Assembly: GCF_003385215.1 (NCBI RefSeq)
Contig: NZ_PQHW01000034.1
Location: forward strand, 1-60,982
DNA length: 60,982 nt
Reading direction: 5' to 3'
Source: Amycolatopsis thermalba
GTDB lineage: Bacteria; Actinomycetota; Actinomycetes; Mycobacteriales; Pseudonocardiaceae
The notes under the pieces were generated by a model. That model worked only from the letters and a program-made list of their open reading frames with translations. It did no database searches and was not told the DNA's origin. How positions within the stretch are numbered: position 1 is the stretch's first letter; every line of letters begins with the position of its first letter. Below are positions 9,972-27,779 of this stretch, one piece after another. The position numbers and the translations under genes were made by a program.

Positions 9972-10903
9972 CCGGCACACCCCGGCTGAGCATCGGACTG
10001 CCCGTCTACAACGGCGAGGAGTACCTGGCCGAGTCCCTGGAAGCGCTGCTCGGCCAGACGTACGAGGACTTCGAGCTCATCATCTCGGACAACGCCTCGA
10101 CCGACGGCACCGCGGACATCTGCCGCCGGTTCGCGAAACAGGACTCGCGGATCCGGTTCATCCCGCTGGCGAAGAACATCGGCGCCGCGCCCAACCACAA
10201 CTTCGTGTTCCGCGAGGCGCGCGGCGAGCTGTTCAAGTGGGCCTCGCACGACGACCTGTACGGGCGGGACCTGCTGCGGCGGTGCGTGGACGCGCTGGAC
10301 GAGCACCCGGAGGTGGTCCTCGCGCACGCCGGGACGGCCATCATCGACGGCCCGGGCGGGGTGACCGCGCCGTTCGAGTACCGGCTCGCCACGGACTCCC
10401 CGCACCCGCCGGCCCGGTTCCGCGCGCTGCTGTTCGCCGACGGCGGTGACGACTTCTACGGGGTGATCCGCTCGGCCGCGCTGCGCCGGGTCCGGCCGCA
10501 CGACAGCTACCACCACGCCGACCGGACCTTCGTCGCCGATATCGCGCTGCAGGGCCCGTTCCACCAGGTCCCCGAGCTGCTGTACTTCCGGCGCGACCAC
10601 CCGGACCGCGCGGAGCGGGCCAACAAGACCATCCGGTCCCGCTGCGCGAACCTGGACCCGAAGCGCGCCGACCCGCTCCGGCACCCGACCGCCCGGCTGC
10701 TCGGCGGCTACGTGTGGGGCTGGATCCGGATCGTCCAGCGCGCGCCGATCACACCCGCGCAGCGCCGCGAGTGCTACCGCCACCTGGGCGAGTGGCTGGC
10801 CCGGCGCGCGCTGCGGCGGGAACCGTCGGAGGAGTTCGCCCGCGTCGAGAACGACCTGGACGCCGTGGTCGACTCGGTGGTGGCCGGGCGCGGGGGCGAG
10901 TGA
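9968..10903 (+). CDS. Glycosyltransferase family 2
   Basis: A 311-residue GT-A-fold inverting transferase. It starts with RLSIGLPVYNGEEYLAESLEALLGQTYEDFELIISDNASTDGT-like family features and has a W-x-x-H-D-D-L segment near residue 88 that supplies the metal-binding Asp pair. There are no obvious membrane spans, so it probably acts at the cytoplasmic face on a lipid-linked glycan. ATGA overlap upstream and TGATG overlap downstream place it firmly within the operon. Confidence 0.9.
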   Translation: MTGTPRLSIGLPVYNGEEYLAESLEALLGQTYEDFELIISDNASTDGTADICRRFAKQDSRIRFIPLAKNIGAAPNHNFVFREARGELFKWASHDDLYGRDLLRRCVDALDEHPEVVLAHAGTAIIDGPGGVTAPFEYRLATDSPHPPARFRALLFADGGDDFYGVIRSAALRRVRPHDSYHHADRTFVADIALQGPFHQVPELLYFRRDHPDRAERANKTIRSRCANLDPKRADPLRHPTARLLGGYVWGWIRIVQRAPITPAQRRECYRHLGEWLARRALRREPSEEFARVENDLDAVVDSVVAGRGGE

Positions 10904-12054
10904 TGCGCGTCGGCGTCTTCGGCCTGCTGGGACAGGGCAACCTCGGCAACGACGGTTCCCTGGCCGCCCTGCTGGACCACCTGCGGCGGGCGCACCCGGA
11001 CGCGGTCGTGGACGCCCTGTGCGGCGGCCCGGAGGAGGTCAGCGGGCGGTACGGCATCCCGGCGCGGCGGCTGCACTGGTTCCGCTCGGAGACGCTGCCG
11101 GCCAAGGTGCTCGGCAAGGTCGCGGACCCGCTGTGGATCGGCCGCTGGGTGCGCCGCCACGACGTGGTGATCGTGCCCGGCATGGGAGTGCTGGAGGCGA
11201 CGCTTCCGCTGCGGCCCTGGGGGTTTCCCTACTCGCTGCTGCTGCTCGGGCTGACCGCCCGCCTCACCGGCACCAAGGTCGCGCTCGTCAACGTCGGCGC
11301 CGACGTGGTCCGCCAGCGCGCCACCCGGTGGGTGATCACGCGCGCCGCGCGGCTCGCGCACTACCGGTCCTACCGGGACGAGCACTCGCGGCAGGCGATG
11401 GCCCGCATGGGCGTCGACGTGCGCGCCGACGCGGTGTTCCCGGACCTGGCGTTCGGGCTGGCCGATCCCGAGCCCCGGCCCTCGTCCGGCGCGGTCGGCG
11501 TCGGGGTCATGTCCTTCCACGGCGGCAACGACGACCGGGCCCGGGCCGGCGAGATCAACCGCGCCTACCTGACTACCGTGAAGCGGTTCGTGCGCCTGCT
11601 GGCCGACGAGGGACGGCCCGTGCGGCTGTTCACCGGCGACGCCGCCGACGACGAGGTGGTCGCCGAGATCCTCGCCGACCTGCCGGACGTCGACGTCACC
11701 GCCGAACCGCCGGCCTCGCTGACCGACCTCATGCGCCAGATGGCCGAGGTGGACGTCGTCGTCGCCACGCGCTACCACAACGTGCTGTGCGCGCTGAAGA
11801 CCGGGAAGCCGGCGATCTCGCTGGGCTACGCGCGCAAGAACGACGTGCTGATGGAGGCGATGGGGCTCGGCGAGTTCGCCCTGTCCGCCCGGGAGCCGGA
11901 CTTCGACCGGCTGGTGCGGCGGTTCCGCGAGCTGCTGGACCGGCGGGAGGAGCTGGTCGCCGTACTGGGGGAACGCAATCGTGTGACGACCGAGCGGCTC
12001 GCGCACCAGTTCGCCATGATGTCCGAATCCGTCGTCGAAGGGAGCCGGCCGTGA
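10903..12054 (+). CDS. Polysaccharide pyruvyl transferase family protein
   Basis: A 383-residue protein starting at ATG 10903, inside a TGATG junction. The N-terminal FGLLGQGNLGNDGSLAALL glycine-rich segment and the C-terminal VVATRYHNVLCALKTGKPAISLGY segment are diagnostic of the PS_pyruv_trans (CsaB/WcaK-like) family. Members transfer pyruvate from PEP to a sugar as a ketal, often creating a negatively charged cell-wall anchoring group; some only share the fold. Its role here is probably decoration of the exopolysaccharide. Confidence 0.85.
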   Translation: MRVGVFGLLGQGNLGNDGSLAALLDHLRRAHPDAVVDALCGGPEEVSGRYGIPARRLHWFRSETLPAKVLGKVADPLWIGRWVRRHDVVIVPGMGVLEATLPLRPWGFPYSLLLLGLTARLTGTKVALVNVGADVVRQRATRWVITRAARLAHYRSYRDEHSRQAMARMGVDVRADAVFPDLAFGLADPEPRPSSGAVGVGVMSFHGGNDDRARAGEINRAYLTTVKRFVRLLADEGRPVRLFTGDAADDEVVAEILADLPDVDVTAEPPASLTDLMRQMAEVDVVVATRYHNVLCALKTGKPAISLGYARKNDVLMEAMGLGEFALSAREPDFDRLVRRFRELLDRREELVAVLGERNRVTTERLAHQFAMMSESVVEGSRP

Positions 12055-12599
12055 AGGCCGTACCGGTACCCGGCATCGCCGGGGCGTGGTTGTTCGAACC
12101 GACACCGCACGCCGACGCGCGCGGGTTCTTCTCGCGTACGTTCGACCGCGAGGTCGTCGCCTCCGTGGGCATCGACCCGGACGGCTTCGCGCAGGACAGC
12201 CTGTCCCGGTCGGTCAAGGGCGTGATCCGCGGAATGCACCTGCGCTCCGGCGCCGGAGAGGCCAAACTGGTCCGGTGCTCCTACGGCGAGGTGTTCGACG
12301 TCGTGGTCGACCTGCGTCCGGACTCGCCGACCTTCCGCAACACCGAGTACTTCCAGCTCTCCGGCGACACCCAGGTCAGCGTGTACGTGCCGGCGGGCTG
12401 CGCGCACGGCTTCCAGGCGCTGACCGACCCCGCCGACGTCTCCTACCGCATCGACCGGCCGCACGACCCGTCCGAGGACGTCACCATCGCCTTCGACGAC
12501 CCGGACCTGGCCATCCCGTGGCCGCTGCCGGTCACCCTGACCTCCGACCGCGACCGGCGCGCGCCCGCGCTCGCCGAAGTTCTGAAGACCCTGAGGTGA
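12051..12599 (+). CDS. dTDP-4-dehydrorhamnose 3,5-epimerase family protein
   Basis: A 182-residue cupin-fold epimerase of the RmlC family, starting at a GTGA-coupled GTG. The family hallmarks are visible: FFSRTFD near residue 26, the catalytic His of GVIRGMHLR near residue 63, and the YVPAGCAHGFQAL segment. It would epimerise C3 and/or C5 of a 4-keto-6-deoxy-NDP-hexose made by neighbouring enzymes. No RmlB or RmlD homologue is adjacent, so it may serve a non-rhamnose sugar. Confidence 0.88.
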   Translation: MKAVPVPGIAGAWLFEPTPHADARGFFSRTFDREVVASVGIDPDGFAQDSLSRSVKGVIRGMHLRSGAGEAKLVRCSYGEVFDVVVDLRPDSPTFRNTEYFQLSGDTQVSVYVPAGCAHGFQALTDPADVSYRIDRPHDPSEDVTIAFDDPDLAIPWPLPVTLTSDRDRRAPALAEVLKTLR

Positions 12600-12604
12600 C
12601 AGTC

Positions 12605-13918
12605 ATGGACGCCCAGTTCCTGCCCAGGTCCACCGAGCTCAACGAGCGCCTGCACCAGCTCGTGCCCGGTGGCGCGCACACCTACGCCAAGGGGGAGGAC
12701 CAGTACCCCGAGGGGCTGGCGCCGGTCATCTCCCACGGCCGCGGCGCGCACGTGTGGGACGTGGATGGCAACTCCTACATCGAGTACGGCTCCGGGCTGC
12801 GGTCGGTGAGTCTCGGGCACGCGCACCCGCGGGTGGTCGAGGCCGTGCGGCGCGAGCTGGACCGGGGCAGCAACTTCGTGCGGCCCTCCACCGTCGAGCT
12901 GGCCGCGGCCGAGAAGTTCCTGGCGACCGTGCCGACCGCGGAGATGGTCAAGTTCGCCAAGAACGGCTCGGACGTCACCACCGCCGCGGTCCGGCTCGCG
13001 CGGGCGGCGACCGGGCGGCGGGTGGTCGCGATCTGCGCCGACCAGCCGTTCTTCTCCACCGACGACTGGTTCATCGGCACCACCGGCATGCCGGCCGGGA
13101 TCCCGGACGAGATCGCCGCGCTGACCGTGCGGTTCCCGTACGGCGACCTGGCCGCGACCGAGGAGATCCTGCGGCAGCACGACGTGGCGTGCCTGGTGCT
13201 GGAGGCCGCGAGCGCGGTCGAGCCGCCGCCCGGGTACCTGGAGGGGCTGCGTGCGCTGGCCGACGCCTACGGCGTGGTGCTGATCTTCGACGAGATGATC
13301 ACCGGTTTCCGCTGGTCGGAGGCGGGCGCGCAGGGCTACTACGGGGTGACGCCGGACCTGTCGACGTTCGGCAAGGCCCTGGGCAACGGGTTCGCGGTGT
13401 CCGCGCTGGCCGGCAAGCGGGAGCTGATGGAGCTGGGCGGGCTGCGGCACACGCGCGAGCGGGTGTTCCTGCTGTCCACCACGCACGGCGCGGAAACCCA
13501 CTCGCTGGCCGCGGCGATGGCCGTCATGGACACCTACGTCCAGGAGGGCATCGCGGCGCGGCTGCACGCGCTCGGCGAGCGCCTGGCGTCCGGGGTGCGG
13601 GACGTGGCGGCGGCGATGGGCGTCGGCGAGCACGTCGTGGTGCGCGGCCGGGCGAGCAACCTGGTGTTCGGCACGCTCGACGAGCAGCTGCGGCCGTCCC
13701 AGCCGTACCGGACGCTGTTCCTGCGGCAGCTGGTCGCCGGGGGTGTGCTCGGGCCGTCGTTCGTGGTGAGCAGCGCCCTGACGGAGGCCGACATCGACCG
13801 GACGGTGGACGTGGTGGCCCAGGCGTGCACCGTGTACCGGAAGGCGCTGGACGCCCAGGACCCGACGCCGTGGATCGGCGGCCGCTCGGTCAAGCCGGTG
13901 TTCCGGCCGTACGCCTGA
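12605..13918 (+). CDS. Class-III aminotransferase, glutamate-1-semialdehyde aminomutase-like
   Basis: A 437-residue PLP enzyme of the GSA-aminomutase/aminotransferase III family. The PLP lysine lies in LSTFGKALGNG near residue 258, preceded by the IFDEMITGFR cofactor Asp. An SD (GAGGTG) sits 6 nt before ATG 12605; an in-frame GTG at 12596, overlapping the upstream stop, is an alternative. GSA-like enzymes in glycan operons often aminate an aldehyde or keto group rather than make 5-aminolaevulinate, so a role in building a glycan substituent is inferred. It ends the plus-strand glycan operon. Confidence 0.85.
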   Translation: MDAQFLPRSTELNERLHQLVPGGAHTYAKGEDQYPEGLAPVISHGRGAHVWDVDGNSYIEYGSGLRSVSLGHAHPRVVEAVRRELDRGSNFVRPSTVELAAAEKFLATVPTAEMVKFAKNGSDVTTAAVRLARAATGRRVVAICADQPFFSTDDWFIGTTGMPAGIPDEIAALTVRFPYGDLAATEEILRQHDVACLVLEAASAVEPPPGYLEGLRALADAYGVVLIFDEMITGFRWSEAGAQGYYGVTPDLSTFGKALGNGFAVSALAGKRELMELGGLRHTRERVFLLSTTHGAETHSLAAAMAVMDTYVQEGIAARLHALGERLASGVRDVAAAMGVGEHVVVRGRASNLVFGTLDEQLRPSQPYRTLFLRQLVAGGVLGPSFVVSSALTEADIDRTVDVVAQACTVYRKALDAQDPTPWIGGRSVKPVFRPYA

Positions 13919-13994: not shown

Positions 13995-14246
13995 ATGCGT
14001 GTACGGGCATCCGACATCTCGGCTCGCACCATCGGTGACGAGACGATCGTGCTCAGCCTGTCGACCTCGAAGTACTTCACCATCACCGGGGTCGGCACGC
14101 GGCTGTTCGAGCTGCTCGCCGAGGAGCGGTCGGTCGAGGACCTGGTCGGCGTGATCACCAGCGAGTACGAGATCGACGCGGACACCGCGCGCCGTGACAT
14201 CGAGACCTTCCTCGGCCGGCTCCGCGATGCCCAGCTCCTCCACTGA
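13995..14246 (+). CDS. PqqD-type RRE protein of the lasso cluster (B1)
   Basis: An 83-residue stand-alone RiPP recognition element with the PqqD fold (winged helix built from three beta-strands and C-terminal helices). The segment TIVLSLSTSKYFTITGVGTRLFELLAEERSVEDL-type pattern is characteristic. In lasso pathways this protein binds the leader peptide and presents the precursor to the B2 protease. An excellent SD (GGGAGG) precedes the ATG. It is the first gene of the B1-C1-B2-kinase transcription unit, and the next gene overlaps it by 20 nt. Confidence 0.88.
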   Translation: MRVRASDISARTIGDETIVLSLSTSKYFTITGVGTRLFELLAEERSVEDLVGVITSEYEIDADTARRDIETFLGRLRDAQLLH

Positions 14247-15345
14247 GGCGCCGCCGCGGCTGTCCACACTGGACATCGCGGCCGGTCAGCCCCTCGGTGC
14301 CGCCCCGTTTCCGCTCGGCGTGCCCACGGACCCGGTGCGCGCGCTGCGGACCGCCCTGCGACCGGCGTTGCGGCGCGAGCCGTGTGTGATCGCCTTTTCC
14401 GGTGGGCGGGACTCGTCGGTGCTGCTGGCGGTCGCGGCCGATCTCGCCGCGCGCGAGGGGCTCGCGCCGCCGATCGCGCTGACCTTCCGCTACCCCGGTG
14501 ACGCGGCCGCGGACGAGTCGGCCTGGCAGGAGGCGGTGATCCGGCACGTCGGCGTGGACACCTGGGTGCGCCGGGACATCGCCGGTGAGCTGGACCTGAT
14601 CGGACCGCTCGTGCGGCCGGTGCTGCGTGCGCGCGGCCCGGTCTATCCGGCGGCGCTGGGCAACACGATGCTGCTCGCGTCGCACGCGCCGGGCGGCAGC
14701 CTGGTCACCGGCAACGCGGGGGACGAGGTGCTCGGCGGGCACCGGCTCGGAACGCTGCGTGCGGTGGCGCGCCGTCGTGGCCGCGGGGTGACCGGGGCCG
14801 ATTGGGCGCGGTTCGCCGTGAGCGCGGCGCCCGCGTTCGCTCGTCGCCGGATCGCGCGCCGGTCGCTGCCGATGCCGTGGCTGCGGCCGGATCCGCGCCG
14901 CGTGGTGTGGCGCGCGGCCGCGGACCGCCCGTTGCGGTGGGAGACCAGCGTGCGCACCGCGTTGGCGACACGCGCGTTCGCGGTGGGATTCCGGACGCGG
15001 GCCGACGCGGCCGCGGAGTACGGCTGCGAGCTGGTGGAGCCGTTCGCCGATCCGTCGTTCGTCGCGTCCTACGCGGCTACCCGGCCGATGACCCGCGCGG
15101 CGGGCACCCGGCTGGTGGCCGACGGGCTGCTGCCGGAGGCCGTCCTCGCCCGGCGGGACAAGGCGCGGTTCAACGCCTCCCGCTTCGGGGCGCGCTCGCG
15201 TGAGTTCGCGCGTGACTGGGGTGGCACCGGTGTGGACGAATCGCTGGTCGACCCGGACGCGCTGCGGGCCGCGTGGCTGGCCGACGAGCCGCCGGCCGCC
15301 ACCGCGATGCTGTTGCAGCAGGCCTGGCTGGCGGAGGCGACATGA
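14227..15345 (+). CDS. Lasso cyclase 1 (short asparagine-synthetase-like)
   Basis: A 372-residue ATP-dependent amide-forming enzyme of the asparagine synthetase family. The PP-loop AFSGGRDSSVLL lies near residue 58 and a NAGDEVLGGHRL segment near 162. It would adenylate the ring Asp side chain and close the macrolactam with core residue 1. Unlike McjC (about 510 residues) or AsnB, it has no N-terminal glutaminase-like domain. ATG 14227 lies inside the B1 gene; an ATG at 14194 is also possible. It is clearly paralogous to cyclase 2 at 19239-20369, including a shared C-terminal LLQQAWLA motif. Confidence 0.85.
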   Translation: MPSSSTEAPPRLSTLDIAAGQPLGAAPFPLGVPTDPVRALRTALRPALRREPCVIAFSGGRDSSVLLAVAADLAAREGLAPPIALTFRYPGDAAADESAWQEAVIRHVGVDTWVRRDIAGELDLIGPLVRPVLRARGPVYPAALGNTMLLASHAPGGSLVTGNAGDEVLGGHRLGTLRAVARRRGRGVTGADWARFAVSAAPAFARRRIARRSLPMPWLRPDPRRVVWRAAADRPLRWETSVRTALATRAFAVGFRTRADAAAEYGCELVEPFADPSFVASYAATRPMTRAAGTRLVADGLLPEAVLARRDKARFNASRFGARSREFARDWGGTGVDESLVDPDALRAAWLADEPPAATAMLLQQAWLAEAT

Positions 15346-15758
15346 GGTGGCGGCGACGGGCCCGGCTGGCCTGGGAGGTGCTGCGGGCGCTTCCGCCGAT
15401 GGTGCGGATCGAGCTCGGCCTGCGGCGCTCGGACCTGCGGGAAACCTGCCGCCGGTTGGGGGTGCGCTGCGATCTGACCAGCACGGAACCACCCTCGGAC
15501 GAGCTGCCGGTGCTGCCGCGGTGGTCGCGGGCGCCCATCCGGGCCTCGTACTTAGTGGTGTCGCGGTGGCCGGCCGGGGACACCTGCCTGCGCCAGTGCC
15601 TGCTCATCGGGCACCGGTTGCGGGACCTGGAGCCGGTGCTGCGGATCGGCGTGCGGCGTGCGGACGGCCGGTTCGCCGCGCACTCGTGGCTGGAGATCGA
15701 CGGCAAGGCGCTGGACCCCACGGCGGCCCGGTACGCGGTTCTCGGATCGGCGGGGTGA
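15342..15758 (+). CDS. Lasso leader peptidase B2 (transglutaminase-like)
   Basis: A 138-residue protein with the B2/Transglut_core3 catalytic triad: Cys82 in DTCLRQCLLIGHRLR, His114 in FAAHSWLEIDG and Asp120. It would cleave the precursor after the residue following the conserved leader Thr, releasing the core N-terminus for cyclisation. It is ATGA-coupled to cyclase 1 and GTGA-spaced to the kinase. One B2 is present for two precursors, so it must process both leaders. Confidence 0.88.
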   Translation: MRWRRRARLAWEVLRALPPMVRIELGLRRSDLRETCRRLGVRCDLTSTEPPSDELPVLPRWSRAPIRASYLVVSRWPAGDTCLRQCLLIGHRLRDLEPVLRIGVRRADGRFAAHSWLEIDGKALDPTAARYAVLGSAG

Positions 15759-15763: not shown

Positions 15764-16675
15764 ATGGACTTCACCTACCGGGCCCACGGGCTGACCGTCT
15801 GGAGCGACGTCGAGCTGGCGCTGCCACCCGGCGACGGCGGCGAGCCGGATCTGGTGCTGCGCCGGGGGCCCGATCACGCGGTGCCCCGGGCGGAGCTGCC
15901 CGGTCGCTGCCTGGCCGAGCTGGCGAAACCGGACGGGCGGGTGTTCTACACGCTCGCCACGGACGGGAACCGGACCGTGCTGCGGTACCCGTCGCTGTGC
16001 GAGTTCGCCGGCGACCCGCTGCTGCGTGAGGTGACCTACCACCTGGACCCGTCGGCCGATCACGGGTTGCTGACCGTGCTCGCGACGGGCGCGCTGCTGG
16101 CCGTGCACCTGACGCTGAACTCGCACCTGGTGCTGCACGCGAGCGCCGTGCGGGTCGACGAGCGGGCACTGGCGTTCGTGGGTGCGTCCGGGATGGGGAA
16201 GTCCACGCTCGCGGCGGCGTTGTGCGGGCTCGGGTGCGATCTGGTGGCCGACGACGTGCTGCGCGTCGATGCCGGCGGGATCGTGTACCCGGGGAGCACG
16301 GAGAACCGGCTGCGGATGGCCGCGCGCGGACTGGCGGACGAGGCCGCCGAGGAGGACGTGCGGCCGACCGCCGACGGTCGGCTGGCGTTGCGGTCCACCG
16401 TGTCCACGAACGCGTTGCCGCTGGCCGCGTGCGTGATCCCGCGGCCAAGTCGGTCCGTTGTGGACGTTTCGGTGGAGCGGCTGGCCGGGGCGCGGGCGTT
16501 CGTGCGGATGAGCCAGTTCCCGCGGGTGCTGGGCTGGCGCGATCCGGCGGTGATGGACTTCGCGTTCCAGCGGCTGGCCGATCTGGTGGCGGAGGTGCCG
16601 GTGTTCGAGGCGACGGTGCCGTGGGGGCCGCCGTTCCGCGACGAGGTGCTCAACACCTTGGCGGCCCTCACCTAA
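15764..16675 (+). CDS. HPr-kinase-like lasso peptide kinase
   Basis: A 303-residue protein with an HPrK C-terminal-type domain: LHASAV near residue 124, a Walker A GASGMGKST at about 140-148 and VADDV at about 161-165. HprK homologues in lasso clusters (paeninodin and pseudomycoidin types) phosphorylate the side chain of the precursor's C-terminal Ser. Both precursors here end in Ser, which fits. ATG 15764 follows a GGGGTGA SD; a GTG at 15755 overlapping the B2 stop is the alternative start. It ends its transcription unit facing the convergent ABC gene. Confidence 0.87.
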   Translation: MDFTYRAHGLTVWSDVELALPPGDGGEPDLVLRRGPDHAVPRAELPGRCLAELAKPDGRVFYTLATDGNRTVLRYPSLCEFAGDPLLREVTYHLDPSADHGLLTVLATGALLAVHLTLNSHLVLHASAVRVDERALAFVGASGMGKSTLAAALCGLGCDLVADDVLRVDAGGIVYPGSTENRLRMAARGLADEAAEEDVRPTADGRLALRSTVSTNALPLAACVIPRPSRSVVDVSVERLAGARAFVRMSQFPRVLGWRDPAVMDFAFQRLADLVAEVPVFEATVPWGPPFRDEVLNTLAALT

Positions 16676-16680: not shown

Positions 16681-16903
16681 CACGCGAGTCCCACGTTCCC
16701 GCACGCGAGTCCCACGTTCCCGCACGCGAGTCCCACGTTCGGGCATGCGTGTCCCACGTTCCTGCGCGCGTGTTCCACGTTCGGGTGCGCGAGTTCGCCG
16801 ATCGCCCCGCGCGCCGGCAGCGGCGAAGTCGCGTGCCTGAGTGTGGGACTCGCGTGCTTGAGTGTGGGACTCGCGTGCTTGAGTGTGGGACTCGCGGGTG
16901 GGT
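16681..16903. repeat. Inverted pair of 21-bp tandem repeat arrays
   Basis: Five 21-bp units run from 16681 to 16785 (16681-16701, 16702-16722 and so on, degrading rightwards), sharing the core CACGCGAGTCCCAC. After a 55-bp spacer, about three units of the same period appear in inverse orientation (16841-16903) with the reverse-complement core GTGGGACTCGCGTG. The arrays fill the whole gap between two convergent stop codons, and the last unit includes the ABC gene stop. They can pair into a very long hairpin and are probably the bidirectional terminator. Confidence 0.85.
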
Positions 16904-18669
16904 CAGCGGTAGGCCGCTGACTGGAGGCGGTACAGCTCGGCGTACTGGCCGGCGCGGGCCATCAGCTCGTCGTGCGTGCCGCATTCCACCACGCGGCCCG
17001 CGTCGAGCACGTAGATCCGGTCGGCCATGCGGGTGCTCGAGAAGCGGTGCGAGATCAGCAGCGCGGCCCGCCCGCCGAGCATGGCCCGGACGTCGGTGAA
17101 CAGCTCGTGCTCGGCGCGCGGGTCGAGCGCCGCGGCGGGTTCGTCCAGCACCACCAGCGAGGTGTCCCGGTACAGCGCCCGCGCCAGCGCGACCCGCTGC
17201 CACTGCCCGCCGGAGAGGTCGAAACCCTCGTCCAGGTCCCGGCCGAGCATCGTGTCCAGGCCGTGCGGCAGCTCGCGCGTCACGCCGAGCACGCCCGCGC
17301 GCCGGGCCGCGTCGTGCACCGACTCCTCGTCGGCGGGGCGGTCGCCGTCGCTGATCGTGATGTTGTCGCGCAACGTCATCTGGTACCGCACGAAGTCCTG
17401 GAAGATCACCGTCACCGACGCGCGGATGTCGGCGGGCGGGGCCTCCGCGCCGTCCCAGCGGCGCGTGCCCCGGTCCGGGTCGTACAGCCCGGCGACGATC
17501 TTGGCGAGCGTCGTCTTGCCGGAACCGTTCTCGCCGACCAGCGCGACCACCTCGCCCGCGCCGATCTCGATGTCCACCGAGTCGACCGCGGGCCGCTCCT
17601 GCTCGGGGTAGCGGAAGCCGACGTCCCGCAGCACGACGCCCCGCCGCAGCGGCCGCTTTTCCCCGGCGGCGGTCGAGCGCGGGGCCGACGCGACGAACCG
17701 TTCGAGGTCGGCCAGGAACGGCGCCGATTCGAGCAGCCCGCCGACCGAGGTGAACAGCGTGCCGAGCTGGCTGCTCAGCAACCGCACCGCGATCGCGGCC
17801 GCGCCCGCCGCGGGCAGGTCGATCCGGCCGCTGCGCACCAGCCCGACGATCGGGCGCAGCGCGGCCGTCAGCGACAGCGCGACACCGATCGTGGTGAGCC
17901 CGGCGATCAGCTGGCGCCGCCGGACCTGCTGCCGCAGCGCGCCGTTGATCTCGGTGTTGAGCTCGGCGTGCCGCGCCCGCAGCGGTTTCGTCGAGTGGAA
18001 CGCGCGCAGCTCGGCCGCGTACGGGCGCTGGGTGAGCAGCTGGCGCAGGTAGTTGCGGCGGCGGAACAGCGGCGTCAGCCGGTGGGCGAACGCGAACTCG
18101 GTGCGGCTGGCCCACCGCGCGAGCAGCACCGCGGGCAGCCCGGCGGCGAGCAGGACCGGCACCAGCAGCGGTTCGACCCCGATCAGCACCGCCGACATCG
18201 TGACCACCCCGAGCAGGCTCCCGGTCAGCCCGAGCAGCGCGGTGGTCACGGCGAACGGCCGGGTCAGCGCGTTCTGCTGGACGCGTTCCAGCGACGTGGC
18301 GAAGCCGGCGGACTCGTAGGTCACCAGGTCCGCGCGGGCGGTGGTGTCCAGCACCCGGTCCCAGACCCGCTGCGAGACGCGTTCGCCGAGCAGCCGGTGC
18401 TGCTGGGTCTGCAGGGCGCCGACCGAACCGGACAGCGCGGTCATGAACGCCAGTGCCAGCAACGAAACGGTGAGGCCGAAGCGCGCGTGTTCCGGCTGCA
18501 GCAACGCGTCGAAGGTGAGCTTGCTCGCCGCGACCACGCCGAGCGCGCCGAGTGCGCCGATGATCTGGTAGACCGCCGCGGTGGCCGTGCCGGCGCGGTC
18601 GGCCGCCGCGACCTCCCGCGCCGCGGCCGTGATCAACCGCGGCGTGGCCGCGATGCGTCTGATCCCCAC
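16903..18669 (-). CDS. ABC exporter of the lasso cluster (fused TMD-NBD)
   Basis: A 588-residue half-transporter of the type-I exporter fold. An N-terminal domain of about six membrane spans (residues about 30-320) is followed by an NBD with Walker A GENGSGKTT, Q-loop IFQDF, signature DLSGGQWQRVALARAL, Walker B SLVVLDEP and H-loop LISHRF. As LarD/McjD-type proteins do, it would export mature lasso peptides and give self-immunity. It is transcribed divergently from the precursors across a palindrome-rich 168-bp region. GTG 18669 is the best start available but lacks a strong SD. Confidence 0.88.
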   Translation of the reverse strand: MGIRRIAATPRLITAAAREVAAADRAGTATAAVYQIIGALGALGVVAASKLTFDALLQPEHARFGLTVSLLALAFMTALSGSVGALQTQQHRLLGERVSQRVWDRVLDTTARADLVTYESAGFATSLERVQQNALTRPFAVTTALLGLTGSLLGVVTMSAVLIGVEPLLVPVLLAAGLPAVLLARWASRTEFAFAHRLTPLFRRRNYLRQLLTQRPYAAELRAFHSTKPLRARHAELNTEINGALRQQVRRRQLIAGLTTIGVALSLTAALRPIVGLVRSGRIDLPAAGAAAIAVRLLSSQLGTLFTSVGGLLESAPFLADLERFVASAPRSTAAGEKRPLRRGVVLRDVGFRYPEQERPAVDSVDIEIGAGEVVALVGENGSGKTTLAKIVAGLYDPDRGTRRWDGAEAPPADIRASVTVIFQDFVRYQMTLRDNITISDGDRPADEESVHDAARRAGVLGVTRELPHGLDTMLGRDLDEGFDLSGGQWQRVALARALYRDTSLVVLDEPAAALDPRAEHELFTDVRAMLGGRAALLISHRFSSTRMADRIYVLDAGRVVECGTHDELMARAGQYAELYRLQSAAYR

Positions 18670-18687
18670 CGCCGAATCGTACCGCCG

Positions 18688-18721
18688 GGGAAACGAATTC
18701 CCGGAATTGTTCCGGTACCGG
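18688..18721. promoter_or_regulatory. Nested palindromes in the divergent lasso promoter region
   Basis: Three overlapping inverted repeats stand between the ABC gene and precursor 1: GGGAA-N5-TTCCC (18688-18702), CCGGAA-TTG-TTCCGG (18701-18715) and the perfect CCGGTACCGG (18712-18721). They sit 19-52 bp upstream of the ABC start and about 120 bp upstream of the first precursor. They fit an operator for a regulator coded elsewhere, because no regulator gene is inside the cluster. Confidence 0.45.
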
Positions 18722-18837
18722 TTGGACAACTTCACCAGCACATTCTCCGGGCGGTTGTAACGGAATGGGTCATTCGGGCGAATCCCGGTCGAGGTCCTTC
18801 GGCTCTCCTTCGTCGACGAGCAACGGAAAGGAGTGAC

Positions 18838-18975
18838 ATGAAGAAAGAATACGCCGCGCCGGGCATCGACGACATCGGCACGTTGTCCGAGCTCACGCTG
18901 GGTCAGTCGGCGGGAACGCGGCTCGACGCCGATTTCGCCGCCGGCACCCTCTTCGGTGATCTGACCTTCTCGTGA
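18838..18975 (+). CDS. Lasso peptide precursor 1
   Basis: A 45-residue peptide preceded by an AAAGGAG SD. Residues 1-21 form a classic lasso leader: Tyr5, Pro8, Ile10, Gly14, then Leu19-Thr20 with Thr at position -2. The predicted core is Gly22-Ser45 (24 residues). Its first nine residues are GQSAGTRLD, so a 9-residue macrolactam between Gly1 and Asp9 is expected. The tail ends DLTFS with a C-terminal Ser that the cluster's kinase could phosphorylate. The alternative acceptor Asp11 would give an atypical 11-residue ring. Confidence 0.88.
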   Translation: MKKEYAAPGIDDIGTLSELTLGQSAGTRLDADFAAGTLFGDLTFS

Positions 18976-19019
18976 CACGGGTTTTCCCGTTCCGGCCAGT
19001 AGTGGGGGGAGGTGAACAC

Positions 19020-19160
19020 ATGCGCGAGCCCTACACCACCCCGGAAATCACCCTGTTGGGTTCGGTGATGGACTTGACACAGCAAAACCTGTTCGGTTCG
19101 TCCCCGGACAACCTGACGTGGGCGATACCGATCCTCGGCGATCGCGACGCGTATTCGTGA
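19020..19160 (+). CDS. Lasso peptide precursor 2 (Gln1-type core)
   Basis: A 46-residue peptide with a near-perfect SD (GGAGGTGA) 4 nt before the ATG. Its leader aligns residue for residue with precursor 1 (Tyr5, Pro8, Ile10, Gly14, Leu19-Thr20), so the predicted core is Gln22-Ser46 (25 residues). It begins QNLFGSSPD, again placing Asp at core position 9. Core Gly5 is also shared with precursor 1. Position 1 is usually Gly, sometimes Ala, Ser, Cys or a few others, so Gln1 is unusual. The peptide ends DAYS, again with a C-terminal Ser. The core sequences otherwise differ completely. Confidence 0.85.
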   Translation: MREPYTTPEITLLGSVMDLTQQNLFGSSPDNLTWAIPILGDRDAYS

Positions 19161-20412: not shown

Positions 20413-21546
20413 TCACCGGGACCCGGTGGGCGAGCCCTTCCGCACCTCGCGCAGGGCGTAGGTGAACCGGCTCAACGGGCTCCGGTGCCGGGCGGCCGTG
20501 TAGCTCGCGTCCGGGAAGACCAGCGCCCGCAGGTACGCGGGCTTGTCGCGCCACGGCAGGACCCGCAGCGTCGCCACCGCCTGTGCCGCGAACGTCTTGT
20601 CCGGTGTCGTGTGCAGGCCGAGCCACGATTCGTCCCGCCGGCACGGCACGTAACCGACCGCCCAGTGGGCCAGCTCGCCCGGGACCTTGATCCCGAGCAG
20701 CCGCACCGTGTCGGCCACCGCGGCGGCCACCACCGCCTCCGCGCCCCACGACGCGGCCGTCCGCCGCACCGGCTCCGGGTTCCCGTCCACCACCCGCAGC
20801 ATCTCCGCCACGTCCCGCAGCGAACCGAGCCGCAGCGGCCAGTCCCCGAGTGCGGCGTGGTAGCAGGCGTGCAGGAACCGGTTCGGCAGCGACAACGCCC
20901 GCACCGCCCGCCCGCCGATCGCGAACTCCTGCCCCGCGTCCCACACCGCGTCCAGGTCGACCCGCCGCCCCCACGGGCCCAGCACGAACGTGCGGTGCAG
21001 GTCCAGCTCGTACCCGGCGGGCGGGCGCAACGTCATGCCCTTGTCGAACCGCCGGTCGAACCCCGGCCGCGGCTCGGCGAGCGTCCGCCGGAAACCCGCC
21101 GTCGCGAGCACCGCCACCGTCCGGTCGATGTCCCCGGCCCGCACCAGCACGTCGAGGTCGTTGAACGACCGCAGCGCCGGATCGGAGTAGTCCAGGTGCG
21201 CCACGGCCGTCCCCTTCAGCACCCGCGCCTCGATGCCCGCCCCGGTCAGCAGGTCCAGGATCCGCAACAGCTCGTGCTCCAGCACCAGCACCCGCATCTG
21301 GTTGGTGGCGTGCGCGGAGGCCGCCTCCCGCGCCTGCGCACCGGTCGCCGGGAACGCGCCCGCGGCGATCGCCGCGGTCAGCAACCCGGTCATCCGGTGC
21401 TTCCGCGCCGCCGCCAGCAGCCCCGGCCAGTCCTCGGCGCGCACCGGTCGCGCGGGCATGGCCCGGTCGGTCCCCGGCAGGCGATACGCCGCGGCGGCGA
21501 GCAGCGCCGCCGGGTACTCGCGTTCGTCACACAGCCTGCGGCCCAT
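20413..21546 (-). CDS. NTP_transf_5 family nucleotidyltransferase
   Basis: A 377-residue protein with the family signature around residues 108-134: RVLKGTAVAHLDY, then DPALRSFNDLDVLV (metal-binding Asp130/Asp132). This family recurs in lasso clusters that also hold an HPrK-like kinase; in the pseudomycoidin pathway its member is linked to further modification of the phosphorylated C-terminal Ser. Here it converges on lasso cyclase 2 (43-bp gap). It also overlaps the upstream PAP2 gene by 20 nt, making it the last cistron of the heptose-glycan operon. It could serve either pathway. Confidence 0.8.
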   Translation of the reverse strand: MGRRLCDEREYPAALLAAAAYRLPGTDRAMPARPVRAEDWPGLLAAARKHRMTGLLTAAIAAGAFPATGAQAREAASAHATNQMRVLVLEHELLRILDLLTGAGIEARVLKGTAVAHLDYSDPALRSFNDLDVLVRAGDIDRTVAVLATAGFRRTLAEPRPGFDRRFDKGMTLRPPAGYELDLHRTFVLGPWGRRVDLDAVWDAGQEFAIGGRAVRALSLPNRFLHACYHAALGDWPLRLGSLRDVAEMLRVVDGNPEPVRRTAASWGAEAVVAAAVADTVRLLGIKVPGELAHWAVGYVPCRRDESWLGLHTTPDKTFAAQAVATLRVLPWRDKPAYLRALVFPDASYTAARHRSPLSRFTYALREVRKGSPTGSR

Positions 21547-22207
21547 CCGGCTCTCCGCTCATCCGTCTCCAGATCCGGTCGATCAGCCCCGCCGTCGCCG
21601 GGACGACCGCCACCGCGGCGCAGAACCCGCCGATCGTGTCGGTCGCGTAGTGGGCGTTCAGCCCGACCTGCGCCCACGCCGCGTAGGAGCCGGTCACCAG
21701 CGCGCACGCCAGCACAACCACCGGACCCGCGCGCCACCGCCGGGCCAGCGGCAGCGCCACCACCAGCGTCACCGCCGTGACGAACGCCGTGTGCCCGCTC
21801 GGATAGGACAGGTGGATCACGTGGATCGTCCGGTCCGTCAACGGTTTCCCGAGCGTGGTCACCGCGACCGTCAGCCCGGGACCGGCGATCGCGAGCGCCA
21901 GCACACGCCACCGCCGGAGCACCGTGAGCGTCACCGCCAGCAGCACCGTCAGGACCATCGATCCCCTGGGCTCACCGAAGAAGTCGATCGCGATCGCCGC
22001 CGACCAGGCGGCGTCGACCGACTCGGTCGCGGCCGGCTGCACCCACGCGTCGAACCACCCCGGCTCGCTGTGGCCGGCGTAGAGCACGCCCAGCAGCACG
22101 ACGACCAGCGCGGCGGCGACCGCGACCGGGTTCAGCACCCGTGCCGCGGGGGCGGGCAGCAGCGGTGGGTTCCGCCGCGGCACGAGTGATCTCCGCAGCC
22201 CAGTCAT
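21527..22207 (-). CDS. PAP2-superfamily membrane phosphatase
   Basis: A 226-residue protein with about five membrane spans and the PAP2 acid-phosphatase motifs: Lys121-Pro-Leu-Thr-Asp-Arg126, PSGH at 136-139, and His186/Asp190 in NAHYATD. It would dephosphorylate a lipid pyrophosphate such as undecaprenyl-PP, recycling the glycan carrier outside the membrane. It is coupled by ATGA to the membrane protein upstream and overlaps the nucleotidyltransferase gene downstream. Confidence 0.87.
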   Translation of the reverse strand: MTGLRRSLVPRRNPPLLPAPAARVLNPVAVAAALVVVLLGVLYAGHSEPGWFDAWVQPAATESVDAAWSAAIAIDFFGEPRGSMVLTVLLAVTLTVLRRWRVLALAIAGPGLTVAVTTLGKPLTDRTIHVIHLSYPSGHTAFVTAVTLVVALPLARRWRAGPVVVLACALVTGSYAAWAQVGLNAHYATDTIGGFCAAVAVVPATAGLIDRIWRRMSGEPDGPQAV

Positions 22208-23850
22208 CGCGTCCTGGCCAGCAGGATCCAGTCCGCGGTGATCTCGGCCTCCGTGAAGTGCTCGGCGAGGTAGGCGCCGTAGACCTCGCGCAGCGCGGTG
22301 ACGGTCTCCGCGCAGCAGCCCTGGCCCTCGGTCAGGCGCGGGATCATCACCCAGTCCACGTTGCCGAAGGCCCGGTCCGCGTCCGGGTGCACGGAGCGGT
22401 CGAAGCTGATGCCGACGTCCCACCACAGCGGGCCGCCGGTCGCGGGCGGCAGGGACAACGCGAACGAGAACGGGTTCGCCAACGCGATCGTCGCCACCGT
22501 GTCCGCGGGCCCGGCGTGCCGCCGCAGCAACGCCACGCCGTCGTTGATCATCGCCGGGACGGCGTTCGCTGTGCGGTACGCGGTCTGCCACTGCGCGTCG
22601 GCGGGAACCACGAAGTCCCGCAGGCCCGGAGCGGCCATGCGCTGGCTCGCCGGCGGAGCCGCCACGTAACCGTGCTCGCTCGCGGCGCGGCCCAGCGCCA
22701 GGGTGTCCTTCCCGGCGATCGGCCCGGCGGTCGCGGTCGCCGGGGCCGCCACCCCCGCGAGCACCAGCGCCGGGGTCCGCACCTTCGGCGCGAGGACCAC
22801 CAGGAGCAGCAGCGGGAGAACCACCAGCGCAGGCAGATCGCCGTGCTCGGCGGTGTTGGCCGAGGCCACCAGCACGCTGGACACCCACACGTATCCGGCG
22901 GCCACGGCCGTCTTGAGGATCGGGCGCGAAGGCAGCTCCAGCCGGCGTGCCCGGAGGATCAACGCGACGACGACGGCCGCGGTGAGCAGCAGCACCGGGG
23001 CGGTGTAGGCGGCGCTGCGCATCAGCATCCCGAGCCGTTGCCCGCCCTGGGAACCGCCGGCGTGCACGAGGTCGGCGAGGTAGCCGGCGATCCCGATGCC
23101 GAACGTCAGCCGCATGACGACCGCGACGCCGAGGAAGGCCGCGACCGCGGCGGCGCCGAACCGGAGGTTGCGGGGCAGCGTGCCCAGCACGAGACCGACC
23201 ACGACCGCGGCCGCGCCGGCCGCGAAGAAGTTGGCCTTGCAGTAGAACATCAGCCCCAGCAGGAAACCGAGCACGAGCCCCTCGGCGACCGCGCGCCGCG
23301 TGGTGAGCGGCGCACGCGGCCGGATCAGCACGAGCAGCAGCAGCGTCGCGTACAGCACCCAGCCGTAGCGGTTGTAGAGCATCGCGTACGTGGTGGTCCA
23401 CGGCGAATACCCGAGCGGGCGGGGCGTGACCACCAGCAGCGCCAGGAAGACCGTGAACCCGGCCGCGTGCACCGCGGGCAGCCGCCGGCGCGCGACGAAC
23501 CAGGCCAGCGGCGCGGTGATCGCGAGGAAGAGCGCACCGGCGTAGACCACCGCGGTCAGCGACGGGACCGCCTGCACCTTCATCCCCAGGCTGACCAGCC
23601 CGTACACCAGCGGCCCGATCGGGTTCTCGAAGTCGGTGCTGGGCACCTGACCCCCGGTCATCCGGTAGGCGCCGTCGAGCAGGATGAACACGTCCCAGGG
23701 CGCGGACATCGGCGCCGGTCCGGACCACAGCCACACCCCGCCCAGCCCGGCGACGAGCACGAGCGTCACGACCGGCCAGAGCCAGGGTCGCCGGTCGCGG
23801 CGGTCCGCGGGCTCCGCCGCGACGCGCGCGTCGATGGCCGGTTTCGTCAT
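22204..23850 (-). CDS. Polytopic membrane protein, possible GT-C glycosyltransferase
   Basis: A 548-residue protein with about 11 predicted membrane spans, starting after a basic N-terminus (residues about 26-43), and a soluble extracytoplasmic C-terminal part (from about residue 400). An early loop carries acidic residues (PWDVFILLDGAYR, STDFENPIGP), as in GT-C-fold enzymes that use lipid-phosphate sugars. No family-defining motif can be confirmed by eye, so this is only a plausible GT-C or EPS-related membrane protein. The operon context (PAP2 downstream, GHMP kinase upstream) supports a glycan role. Confidence 0.6.
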   Translation of the reverse strand: MTKPAIDARVAAEPADRRDRRPWLWPVVTLVLVAGLGGVWLWSGPAPMSAPWDVFILLDGAYRMTGGQVPSTDFENPIGPLVYGLVSLGMKVQAVPSLTAVVYAGALFLAITAPLAWFVARRRLPAVHAAGFTVFLALLVVTPRPLGYSPWTTTYAMLYNRYGWVLYATLLLLVLIRPRAPLTTRRAVAEGLVLGFLLGLMFYCKANFFAAGAAAVVVGLVLGTLPRNLRFGAAAVAAFLGVAVVMRLTFGIGIAGYLADLVHAGGSQGGQRLGMLMRSAAYTAPVLLLTAAVVVALILRARRLELPSRPILKTAVAAGYVWVSSVLVASANTAEHGDLPALVVLPLLLLVVLAPKVRTPALVLAGVAAPATATAGPIAGKDTLALGRAASEHGYVAAPPASQRMAAPGLRDFVVPADAQWQTAYRTANAVPAMINDGVALLRRHAGPADTVATIALANPFSFALSLPPATGGPLWWDVGISFDRSVHPDADRAFGNVDWVMIPRLTEGQGCCAETVTALREVYGAYLAEHFTEAEITADWILLARTR

Positions 23851-23854
23851 CGGG

Positions 23855-24844
23855 TCAGCTCCAGATGTCGCGGTGCACGTTGAAGATGACCCGGGACCCG
23901 AGCCGCTCCAGTTTGATCGGCAGTTCCTTCATCGTGGCCAGCCGCGAGCGCACCGCCCGCTGGTGTTCCAGGGGGCAGCTGACCAGCAGGAACCCGCCGC
24001 CGCCCGCGCCGGTCACCTTCGCGCCGGACGCGCCCGCCGCCAGTGCCGCGTCCACGGCCTCGTCGATCTGCCGGTTCGACACCCCGGACGCGAGCGAGCG
24101 CTTGGCCTCCCAGCTCTTGCGCAACGCGGTGCCCAGCGCGGACAGGTCGCCGCCACGCAGGCCGTCCGCCGCCTCGCCCGCGAGGTCGCGCAGCTGGCCC
24201 AGCTGCGGCAGCCGGTCGCCGACGTTCGCGTTCTGCTCGCCCAGGATCGTGTTCGCGCTGCGGGTGATGCCGGTGAAGAACAGCATCAGCTCGTCCTGAA
24301 GCTTCCGCCAGTCCGCGCGCGGCAGGTCGATCCGTTCGACGCCGACCGCGTCGCCGGGCCCGAACTGCAGGTCGCACAGCCCGCCGTAGGCAGCCGCGTA
24401 CTGGTCCTGCCTGCCGATCGGTTTGCGGCAGCGGTCGATCTCGATCGCGCACGCCCGGTCGGCCAGCTCCGCGGCGGTCACCTGCCTGCCCTGGTAGGCG
24501 AACAACGCGTGCAGCAGCCCGACGGTCACCGAGGACGACGATCCGAGCCCGGACCCGGCGGACGGGATGTCGGCCAGCGTGGTGATCTCCACGCCGCTGC
24601 GCACCCCGGTCATGTGCATGGCCTCGCGCACCAGCTCGTGCTCCAGGTCCTCGACCCGGGAGACGATCTCCTTGCGCGAGTAGTTGACGTAGATCTCGTC
24701 GTCGAAGCGCTGCTTGACCACGACGTAGACGTACTTGTCGATGGCCGCGTTGAGCACCCGGCCGCCGTGTTCGCGGTAGTAGCCGGGCAGATCGGTCCCG
24801 CCACCGACGAGCCCGATGCGCAGCGGGGTCTGGGTGATGATCAC
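23855..24844 (-). CDS. hddA: D-glycero-D-manno-heptose-7-phosphate kinase (GHMP family)
   Basis: A 329-residue GHMP kinase starting at a GTGA-coupled GTG, giving the canonical N-terminus VIITQTPLRIGLVGGGTDL. The ATP-binding motif PSAGSGLGSSSS lies near residue 95 and the C-terminal TGAGGGGFLL near 288. Sequence features match HddA, which phosphorylates D-glycero-D-manno-heptose 7-phosphate at C1 with alpha configuration. The neighbouring guanylyltransferase and the GmhB-GmhA fusion complete the GDP-heptose route, which strongly supports the assignment. Confidence 0.88.
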   Translation of the reverse strand: MIITQTPLRIGLVGGGTDLPGYYREHGGRVLNAAIDKYVYVVVKQRFDDEIYVNYSRKEIVSRVEDLEHELVREAMHMTGVRSGVEITTLADIPSAGSGLGSSSSVTVGLLHALFAYQGRQVTAAELADRACAIEIDRCRKPIGRQDQYAAAYGGLCDLQFGPGDAVGVERIDLPRADWRKLQDELMLFFTGITRSANTILGEQNANVGDRLPQLGQLRDLAGEAADGLRGGDLSALGTALRKSWEAKRSLASGVSNRQIDEAVDAALAAGASGAKVTGAGGGGFLLVSCPLEHQRAVRSRLATMKELPIKLERLGSRVIFNVHRDIWS

Positions 24845-25539
24845 GACGCTCGCCTGCCTTGCCATTCGTCGCGGGCCCGGTCCAGCGCCGCGGGGGTGCC
24901 GATGTCGAGGAACCACGCGTCGCCGAGGGAGACCACGCGCGCGTGCCCGACGAGCTTGGGCAGCAGGTGGTAGCCGATGTCGGCGGGCGGCGGCCCGATC
25001 AGGTCGAGCACGGCGGGGGAGAACGCGTACATCCCGGCGTTCGCCAGATCACCGGACGGCGTGGCCGGCTTCTCGGTGAAACCCGTGACCAGGCCACCGG
25101 AAACGGTCAGGATCCCGCACCGCGTGGGATCGGGGGCGTGGAACACCGACAGCGTGGCGATGGTCCCGCCGGTGCGATGCGCGTCGATCAGGACCCGCGG
25201 GTCGAAGTCGGTGAGGTTGTCCGCGTTGAGGGCCAGGAACATGTCCTCGCCCGCGACGAACGAGCGGTTGGCCCACAGCGTGCCCGCGCTGCCGAGCAGT
25301 TCCGGTTCCTCGACGGTGTGCACGACCGGGCCACCGCGCCGGACCGCGAGGTGCGCCCGCACCAGCGGGGCCAGGTGGTGCAGGTTGACCAGCACCTCGT
25401 CCACCCCGGCGGCGGCGAGCGCGTCGAGCCAGATGTCCAGCATCGGCCGCCCGCCGATCTCGACCAGGCACTTGGGCGTGTGGTCGGTCAGGGGTCGCAA
25501 CCGCGTCCCCAGCCCGGCCGCGAGCAGGAACGCCTTCAC
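24841..25539 (-). CDS. hddC: Heptose/mannose-1-phosphate guanylyltransferase-like (HddC role)
   Basis: A 232-residue nucleotidyltransferase starting with KAFLLAAGLGTRLRPLTDHTPKCLVEIGGRPML, the pyrophosphorylase signature including the conserved Lys. An LNADNLTDFDP segment near residue 107 holds the metal-binding Asp. Between hddA and the other heptose genes, the likely reaction is GTP plus D-glycero-alpha-D-manno-heptose 1-phosphate to GDP-heptose. By motif alone a mannose-1-phosphate substrate is also possible. Start GTG 25539 and the stop overlap both neighbours by 4 nt. Confidence 0.8.
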   Translation of the reverse strand: MKAFLLAAGLGTRLRPLTDHTPKCLVEIGGRPMLDIWLDALAAAGVDEVLVNLHHLAPLVRAHLAVRRGGPVVHTVEEPELLGSAGTLWANRSFVAGEDMFLALNADNLTDFDPRVLIDAHRTGGTIATLSVFHAPDPTRCGILTVSGGLVTGFTEKPATPSGDLANAGMYAFSPAVLDLIGPPPADIGYHLLPKLVGHARVVSLGDAWFLDIGTPAALDRARDEWQGRRAS

Positions 25540-26648
25540 GTCCCCGCCTTGCGCACCACGCCGAGCGACCGCATCTTGGCGTCCGCCTCGGCGAGGATCT
25601 CGTCCAGGCCCGGCATGTCCCGCAACCAGTCGGCGTACTCGGCCACCGAGTCCGCGGGAGTCCGCTTCGGGGACCAGCCCAGCTGTTCGAGCGCGTCGAT
25701 GTCGGAGGTGATGTGCCGGGTGTCGCCGAAGCGGTACTCGCCGCTGATCCGGCCCGGCCGGTCCGATCCGTACTGGCGGCGCACGATGTCGGCGAACTCC
25801 TGCGTGGTGTAGCCGGTTCCGCCGCCGACGTTGAAGACCCGCCCGGCGGCGCGGTCGTCGGCGAGCACCAGCACATTCGCGTCGACCACGTCGTGGATGT
25901 TCACGTAGTCGCGGATCGCCTGCCCGTCCTCGTACAGCGTCGGCGCGCCGCCCAGCAGGTAGTGCAGGTTGAAGATGCGGCACGCGCCGGAGTAGGCGTT
26001 GTAGACCGACTGCCGCGGGCCCTGGACGATGCTGTAGCGCAACGCGGCGGTCGGGATTCCGTAGCGGCGCCCGAGGTTGACCGCCACGACCTCCTCGCCG
26101 TGCTTGGACATGCCGTAGGCGTTCTGCGGGTTGGCGATCCGCTCCGGTGTGGGCAGCATCGCCAGCGGCTCGCCGCACACCGCGCAGCCGAGGTCCCAGT
26201 GCCCCGCCCGCAACGCCGCCTCGGGCCGCATGTCCGGCGTCTGCTCGCCGTGCGCCGCGCACCGGTAGAGCCCCTCGCCCATCGCGGCCTGCGAGGACGC
26301 CACCACGATCCGGGCCAGGTCCAGCTTCTCGGCGACCACGATCTCGTAGATCATCGCCGTGGACGTGACGTTGACGTCGGTGAACTTCGCGAAGTCCGGC
26401 AGGTAGTCCTGGTAGGCGGCGAAGTGGTAGACCGCGTCGGCGCGGCGCAGCAGGTTGCGCATCAGATCGCGGTTGCGCACGTCGCCCTCGTAGAACTCCA
26501 CGCCGGGCGTCAGGTGGTTCGGTTTCCCGTCGCGGTGCACCGGCGCGGCCAGCACGTCCAGCACGGTCACCTCGTGCCCCAGCTCGACGAGCCGGTCGCA
26601 GGTGTGCGATCCGATGAACCCGGCGCCGCCGGTGACCAGGATCCTCAT
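25536..26648 (-). CDS. SDR nucleotide-sugar epimerase with Cys/His-rich insertion
   Basis: A 370-residue extended SDR: GGAGFIGS at residues 7-14, then the ASSQAAMGEG segment and catalytic YGMSK near residue 185. Between the Ser and Tyr motifs is an unusual insertion with C-x2-H (RCAAHGEQ) and C-x2-C (GCAVCGEP), resembling a zinc knuckle. Similar insertions occur in actinobacterial proteins annotated as dTDP-L-rhamnose 4-epimerase. In this operon it may instead act on GDP-heptose. The fold is certain, the substrate is not. Confidence 0.8.
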   Translation of the reverse strand: MRILVTGGAGFIGSHTCDRLVELGHEVTVLDVLAAPVHRDGKPNHLTPGVEFYEGDVRNRDLMRNLLRRADAVYHFAAYQDYLPDFAKFTDVNVTSTAMIYEIVVAEKLDLARIVVASSQAAMGEGLYRCAAHGEQTPDMRPEAALRAGHWDLGCAVCGEPLAMLPTPERIANPQNAYGMSKHGEEVVAVNLGRRYGIPTAALRYSIVQGPRQSVYNAYSGACRIFNLHYLLGGAPTLYEDGQAIRDYVNIHDVVDANVLVLADDRAAGRVFNVGGGTGYTTQEFADIVRRQYGSDRPGRISGEYRFGDTRHITSDIDALEQLGWSPKRTPADSVAEYADWLRDMPGLDEILAEADAKMRSLGVVRKAGT

Positions 26649-27775: not shown

Positions 27776-27779
27776 GCGG

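Follow-up and report, generated by a model that had tools for sequence, protein, structure and literature searches.

We found that a stretch of DNA from Amycolatopsis thermalba (60,982 nucleotides, 71.7% G+C, one contig of a 7.2-Mb genome; referred to as the window) carries a lasso peptide cluster that appears to make two products, with shared leader processing and one dedicated cyclase for each core, and we give this reading of the sequence a probability of roughly 0.6. Its genes are arranged in the order RRE, C1, B2, K, ABC (minus strand), A1, A2, C2, and nucleotidyltransferase N (minus strand). The initial annotation had proposed that one set of tailoring enzymes matures both precursors, A1 and A2. 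This applies to the RRE, the leader peptidase, the kinase, and the ABC exporter, each present as one copy, and the nucleotidyltransferase is probably also common to both peptides. It does not apply to the ring-closing step, for which the cluster contains two cyclase genes, C1 and C2, tracking A1 (22 of 23 loci) and A2 (23 of 23) respectively. From the genes, motifs, conservation, and co-occurrence that we observed, we infer every enzymatic step and the pairing of one cyclase with one core as follows. The PqqD-like RRE would recognise both leaders by their common motif (Y5, P8, I10); B2, the only leader peptidase, would cleave after residue 21, leaving Thr at position -2; and the HPr-kinase-like K would phosphorylate the C-terminal Ser of both precursors. 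C1 would then activate Asp9 of A1 and C2 that of A2, each joining Asp9 to the N-terminus of its core, to give two lasso peptides with 9-residue rings. The ABC protein would export both, and N may add a sugar to the phosphate.

A1 (18838..18975, plus strand; GQSAGTRLDADFAAGTLFGDLTFS) and A2 (19020..19160, plus strand; QNLFGSSPDNLTWAIPILGDRDAYS) are open reading frames of 45 and 46 aa, with predicted 21-aa leaders followed by cores of 24 and 25 aa respectively, and a purine-rich stretch resembling a ribosome-binding site lies upstream of each. As initially described, the 21-residue leaders are in identical register and share Y5, P8, I10, G14, L19, and T20, and the cores share G5 and D9. The accompanying statement that the cores otherwise differ completely was too strong, as the cores also agree at A14, G19, and D20 and both end in Ser. 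In an ungapped comparison excluding Met1, 11 of 44 positions are identical, a value equalled in 0.02% of 50,000 shuffles; identities number 6 of 20 in the leader (0.3% of shuffles) and 5 of 24 in the core (3.7%). Across ungapped offsets from -10 to +10, there are 12 identities at offset 0 (Met1 included) and at most five at any other. The register match had been offered as strong internal evidence that the two genes are real. Both indeed appear real, with the register match (0.02% of shuffles) being moderate evidence and cross-species conservation the main and stronger evidence: orthologues occur in other loci of the family, A1 in 11 (one of them decayed) and A2 in 21. A chance register match is ruled out by the shuffles together with this conservation.

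Both peptides have Thr at position -2 (T20), the usual residue in lasso precursors according to the available text of PMC10368454, and an acidic residue within core positions 7–9 (D9, from the Asp/Glu expected there). The curated precursor models, whose cut-offs are an aid to naming lasso precursors and not a biochemical requirement, score both peptides under cut-off: lasso_leader_L3 (NCBIfam, cut-off 19) gives 18.2 bits for A1 and 16.1 bits for A2, and lasso_cyano (cut-off 33) gives 12.8 and 20.6 bits. A1 and A2 are very probably two lasso precursors, and the 9-residue rings predicted for them are backed by sequence, cluster content, and conservation. Their dehydrated cores have predicted monoisotopic masses of 2399.139 (A1) and 2731.324 (A2).

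The enzymes predicted to be shared are encoded around the precursors. The RRE or PqqD-like (B1) leader-binding protein (13995..14246, plus strand) matches Pfam PqqD with 59.7 bits, above cut-off. The transglutaminase-like leader peptidase B2 (15342..15758, plus strand) matches NCBIfam NF033537 with 53.2 bits (cut-off 33); its residues C82 and H114 are kept in 22/22 relatives and D120 in 14/22, and its family, PF13471, has a single match across the whole genome. K (15764..16675, plus strand), proposed to be the kinase of the C-terminal Ser, scores under cut-off both with HprK-related models (35.5–36.1 bits) and with Pfam Hpr_kinase_C (24.9 bits), and its P-loop GxSGxGKST is kept in 22/22 relatives. 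The ABC exporter (16903..18741, minus strand), consisting of permease and ATPase, matches Pfam ABC_tran with 97.7 bits and was matched in all 22 other loci. N (20413..21546, minus strand), an NTP_transf_5 nucleotidyltransferase (PF14907, 132.4 bits) and a candidate phospho-glycosylation enzyme, was matched in 20/22 other loci, the two misses (G040 and G190) being on contigs that end nearby. The combination of RRE (B1), B2, and an Asn-synthase-like cyclase that marks lasso clusters is present, with Pfam and NF033537 matches all above cut-off; as predicted by HMM, this is a complete lasso cluster with additional kinase-like and nucleotidyltransferase genes.

The two Asn-synthase-like lasso cyclases are C1 (14194..15345, plus strand; 383 aa; PF00733, 57.0 bits), the proposed partner of A1, and C2 (19239..20369, plus strand; 376 aa; PF00733, 68.8 bits), the proposed partner of A2. 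They are 42% identical over 371 columns, and these two PF00733 genes rule out a single cyclase in the cluster. The motifs SGGRDS and GDE are kept in 10/10 other C1 and 21/21 other C2 sequences. The canonical McjC-type cyclase carries an N-terminal glutaminase-like domain. Pfam detects no such domain in C1 or C2, where only PF00733 and PP-loop-type models match, and both proteins start almost at the ATP-binding synthetase domain. With the cyclase model NF033535 (cut-off 525) they score 12.5 and 23.6 bits, far under cut-off; residue 51 of C2 aligns to position 261 of this model, in which about 260 positions precede the SGG motif. Among the genes with a readable SGG motif (31 from the family and 39 from the outgroup loci described below), the motif is preceded by fewer than 260 residues, counted from the upstream stop, in 27/31 family and 33/39 outgroup genes, and by at most 150 residues in 29/39 outgroup genes. 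The short form is thus common in relatives and does not disqualify C1 and C2 as lasso cyclases.

C2 was modelled with AlphaFold2 from 16 sequences (mean pLDDT 86.7), and the model likewise begins with the synthetase domain. Foldseek matched it best to beta-lactam synthetase, followed by human asparagine synthetase and carbapenam synthetase, with E-values from 1e-5 to 7e-4 and low TM-scores (0.38–0.42 by query length), and a search of the C2 sequence against solved structures gave no match at E 0.01. The model would place C2 in the expected enzyme class, that of ATP-dependent carboxyl activation for amide formation. It is highly improbable that C1 and C2 instead act jointly on each core (e.g., as a heteromer), or that one of them amidates a side chain or the C-terminus. 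Asparagine synthetase is mentioned 12 times in the accessible part of a preprint on C-terminal-nitrile RiPPs (PMC13060819), so enzymes of this kind may catalyse further reactions in RiPP pathways. However, beta-lactam synthetase, the best structural match of C2, is an amide-closing enzyme, and RRE, B2, K, ABC, and a precursor are still present wherever only C2 (11 loci) or only C1 (one locus) occurs, so that neither cyclase seems to need the other.

The proposed assignment of each cyclase to its own core is based on their distribution in the family. Our search of 390 Pseudonocardiaceae genomes found a C2-like match in 24, own genome included, and we compared 23 loci, i.e., the window and 22 other loci with enough sequence. 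Two sequences were excluded from this count: G320, a 3.8-kb contig with a partial cyclase (also excluded from the cyclase tree), and another G190 contig (L044), which ends in a cyclase fragment. This fragment, at ~10.3 kb, is C2-like and is adjoined by PAP2- and epimerase-like matches. Over the 23 loci, an A1 profile built from 10 of the 12 A1 sequences scored at least 68 bits in 12 loci, and an A2 profile built from 21 of the 22 A2 sequences at least 62 bits in 22, with crosswise scores below 37 bits; as the profiles were built from the sequences they scored, the gap between scores is informative and their height is not. Both pairs (A1 with C1 and A2 with C2) are present in 10/23 loci (the window, G170, G171, G173, G179, G181, G261, G262, G264, and G329), only the A2–C2 pair in 11/23 (G040, G041, G042, G044, G112, G190, G275, G291, G328, G387, and G388), and only the A1–C1 pair in one (G206). 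The remaining locus, G317, is discordant, with A1, A2, and C2 and no C1; its A1 (L062, at about 9.1–10.8 kb) is divergent, with a core that begins with Ala, and it is the sole exception to the pairing. Presence by profiles and tblastn thus agrees for C2 and A2 in 23/23 loci and for C1 and A1 in 22/23, the decayed A1 of G171 being counted as present.

In a whole-genome search of 14 of these genomes for C1, a true C1 was found only in G206 (64%), and the other 13 had just genes of 41–46% identity, located at the C2 places and in the G190 contig-end fragment. An A1-alignment search of 24 genomes gave strong matches (at least 67 bits) only in the family loci; the weaker matches were A2 leaders, save one 20.8-bit match on another G042 contig. 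C1 and A1 are ~3.5 kb apart, with B2, K, and ABC in between, and all three of these are retained in all 11 loci without C1 and A1, so the joint absence is not explained by one simple deletion and likely reflects two separate events. This argument is weaker for G044, G275, and G291, where gene order is altered. A2 and C2 are adjacent, so a single deletion could take both. Presence also varies within one genus (g32), as G329 has both C1 and A1 and G328 has neither. On a tree of RRE+B2+K+ABC, the distribution of C1 needs three changes (2–4 over bootstraps), and a phylogenetic test of C1 against A1 found one independent pair on supported branches and three on all branches; with one independent pair the test has no power, and the association cannot reach significance by it. 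The presence pattern of C1 and A1 is therefore striking, statistically thin, and suggestive, and its thin tree contrasts count against dedicated cyclases.

We also examined relatives outside the family. Searches at E 1e-15 matched 27 of 397 order-level and 20 of 394 class-level genomes, with the own genome counted in both and four family relatives counted in the order-level search; of the 41 matching outgroup genomes, G432, G493, G721, and G782 were omitted, and 40 stretches from 37 genomes were retained. In a 73-row cyclase tree including 40 outgroup rows (quick search, SH-aLRT only, midpoint root), C1 (11 rows) and C2 (22 rows) form separate clades with SH-aLRT of 100 and 99. The separate clades rule out a recent C1/C2 duplication, as far as a quick, midpoint-rooted tree with SH-aLRT only can do so, and indicate that the split is ancient as judged from sequence; the tree, with its 40 outgroup rows, does not show C1 and C2 to be each other's closest relatives.

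The outgroup precursors were found by sequence pattern only, and some may be missed. Two precursors with one cyclase match occur in 11/40 outgroup loci (L140–L143, L145–L150, and L155), 10 from family f34 and one from f43; a single cyclase is thus evidently able to handle two cores. These loci resemble the window in their leader pattern and mostly contain RRE, B2, K, and a cyclase of the same kind, and the three tabulated f34 cores have D9 and either S or A as their first residue, whereas two precursors there go with one cyclase match. Paired precursors are common in such clusters, and the second cyclase is the unusual part here. At ~5993 in the class-level locus L154 (G777), an A1-like core lies beside a cyclase weakly grouped (84) with C2, suggesting that the original cyclase for cores of the A1 type may have been C2-like; this, too, counts against dedicated cyclases. 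As a separate observation, L152 (G914) has two cyclase-like matches ~6 kb apart (at ~539 and ~6498) and one likely precursor, and is possibly another two-cyclase cluster.

These loci bear on a different account of the window, in which both cyclases take both cores without strict specificity and C1, acquired along with A1, is an extra copy that adds redundancy or dosage. The 11 outgroup loci would fit it, as would G317, which retains A1 and A2 with C2 alone, and the leader register and Asp9 are common to both precursors. However, C1 and C2 belong to anciently split clades and have dN/dS between the window and relatives of 0.14–0.29, and C1 is missing from 11/11 A2-only loci and C2 from the single A1-only locus. 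We regard such redundancy as rather unlikely, and one cyclase per core as the preferred reading.

On the minus strand at about 10.4–10.6 kb of L046 (G171), the A1 orthologue has lost motif residues and its frame departs near the C-terminus (in one assembly), while A2, C1, and C2 are open. Compared with the window, dN/dS of C1 is 0.29 in G171 and 0.17–0.27 in the other three compared, that of C2 is 0.14 against 0.19–0.22, and that of B2 is 0.30 against 0.15–0.28. These values do not support a decay of C1 coupled to that of A1 in G171, as B2 dN/dS is raised likewise.

D9 and Thr at -2 are kept in 12/12 A1 and 22/22 A2 sequences of Pseudonocardiaceae, and the C-terminal Ser in 11/12 A1 (the exception being the decayed one) and 22/22 A2. 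In 17 hand-picked outgroup precursors, D is found at core position 9 in 10 and is absent in seven, with the same cleavage assumed. Summed over all pairs of seven chosen sequences for each precursor, pN/pS of A1 is 0.53 in the leader and 0.16 in the core, and that of A2 is the reverse, with 0.24 and 0.40 respectively. The A1 core is nearly constant across several genera, a pattern in the sequences that hints at a conserved target or role and not at fast-changing competition.

Core position 1 is G in 11 A1 sequences and A in one, and in A2 it is A in 15, Q in two, S in two, G in two, and V in one, a variation in keeping with the predicted cut directly behind Thr(-2)-Gln. An N-terminal Gln could cyclise to pyroglutamate, blocking ring closure. 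It is thus conceivable that in this strain one precursor is not turned into a lasso, either A2, by way of its Gln1, or A1, as a relic. The window A2 has one of only two Gln1 among 22 sequences, with Ala in the five other loci of its genus, and the decayed A1 of G171 would also fit such a view. We consider it decidedly unlikely, however, as A1 and A2 have dN/dS of 0.12–0.32 between the window and relatives, and A1 is intact in the window.

Genes of a polysaccharide-type locus surround the lasso cluster on both sides (9968–13915 and 20413–28967). Upstream are genes for a glycosyltransferase, pyruvyl transferase, dTDP-sugar epimerase, and aminotransferase, the last of class III (12605–13915) and matched near the cluster in 20/22 other loci, not always adjoining the RRE. 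Downstream are genes for PAP2, GHMP kinase, nucleotidyl transferase, epimerase, glycosyltransferase, and a HAD-SIS fusion. This fusion (27783–28967) has a HAD phosphatase and a SIS domain in one protein, with the GHMP kinase and nucleotidyl transferase nearby; together they look like a heptose-phosphate (GmhA/GmhB-type) donor pathway. The two features that mark phosphorylated lasso peptides, a C-terminal Ser and an HPr-kinase-like gene, are both present, with K scoring under the curated HprK cut-offs. By analogy with the systems discussed below, the products of A1 and A2 may be phosphorylated and glycosylated.

According to the available text of PMC9266682, the PadeK/ThcoK clusters (paeninodin-type) contain an HPr-kinase-like gene, and the C-terminal Ser of their precursors is conserved. 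The cluster studied here resembles what is described there in its HPr-kinase-like gene, B1 and B2 proteins, and conserved C-terminal Ser; unlike the paeninodin-type, it is actinobacterial, has two precursors and two cyclases (~380 aa), and has a kinase match under curated cut-offs. For pseudomycoidin, the accessible portions of the two reports state that the kinase PsmK phosphorylates the terminal Ser and PsmN adds one or two hexoses (PMC9266682; PMC8498205). The window similarly combines a kinase with a nucleotidyltransferase as in that partial description, N being a possible counterpart of PsmN by enzyme type, whereas here the N gene is transcribed in the opposite direction and has polysaccharide-type genes as neighbours. 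Rumen-bacterial lasso clusters, mainly from Firmicutes, are described in the available text of PMC7533575 as having nucleotidyltransferase, HPr kinase, and glycosyltransferase genes nearby. Such genes also lie near the lasso cluster of the window, and the phrase “two cyclase” is absent from that text.

In the open-licence literature, as covered by titles and the starts of abstracts and with most subscription papers outside this scope, we found no lasso cluster with precursor-specific cyclases; where “two cyclases” did appear in the text available there, they were polyketide cyclases and not lasso ones. In the fullest form of our proposal, maturation would be divided by substrate solely at ring closure, with two old, glutaminase-less cyclases each threading its own core and with leader recognition, cleavage, phosphorylation, and export in common, and the phosphorylated products would be linked via N to sugars of the surrounding cell-surface glycan pathway. 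Taken as a whole, we regard this extended scheme as quite unlikely.

The core demands of lasso cyclases are still hard to predict. The window provides a matched set for this question, in which two cores and two cyclases have the same leader register, predicted ring size, acceptor residue, host, and helpers. Together with the relatives that have one pair (11 with A2 and C2, one with A1 and C1) and the one discordant locus, they would make direct swaps of cyclase specificity possible.
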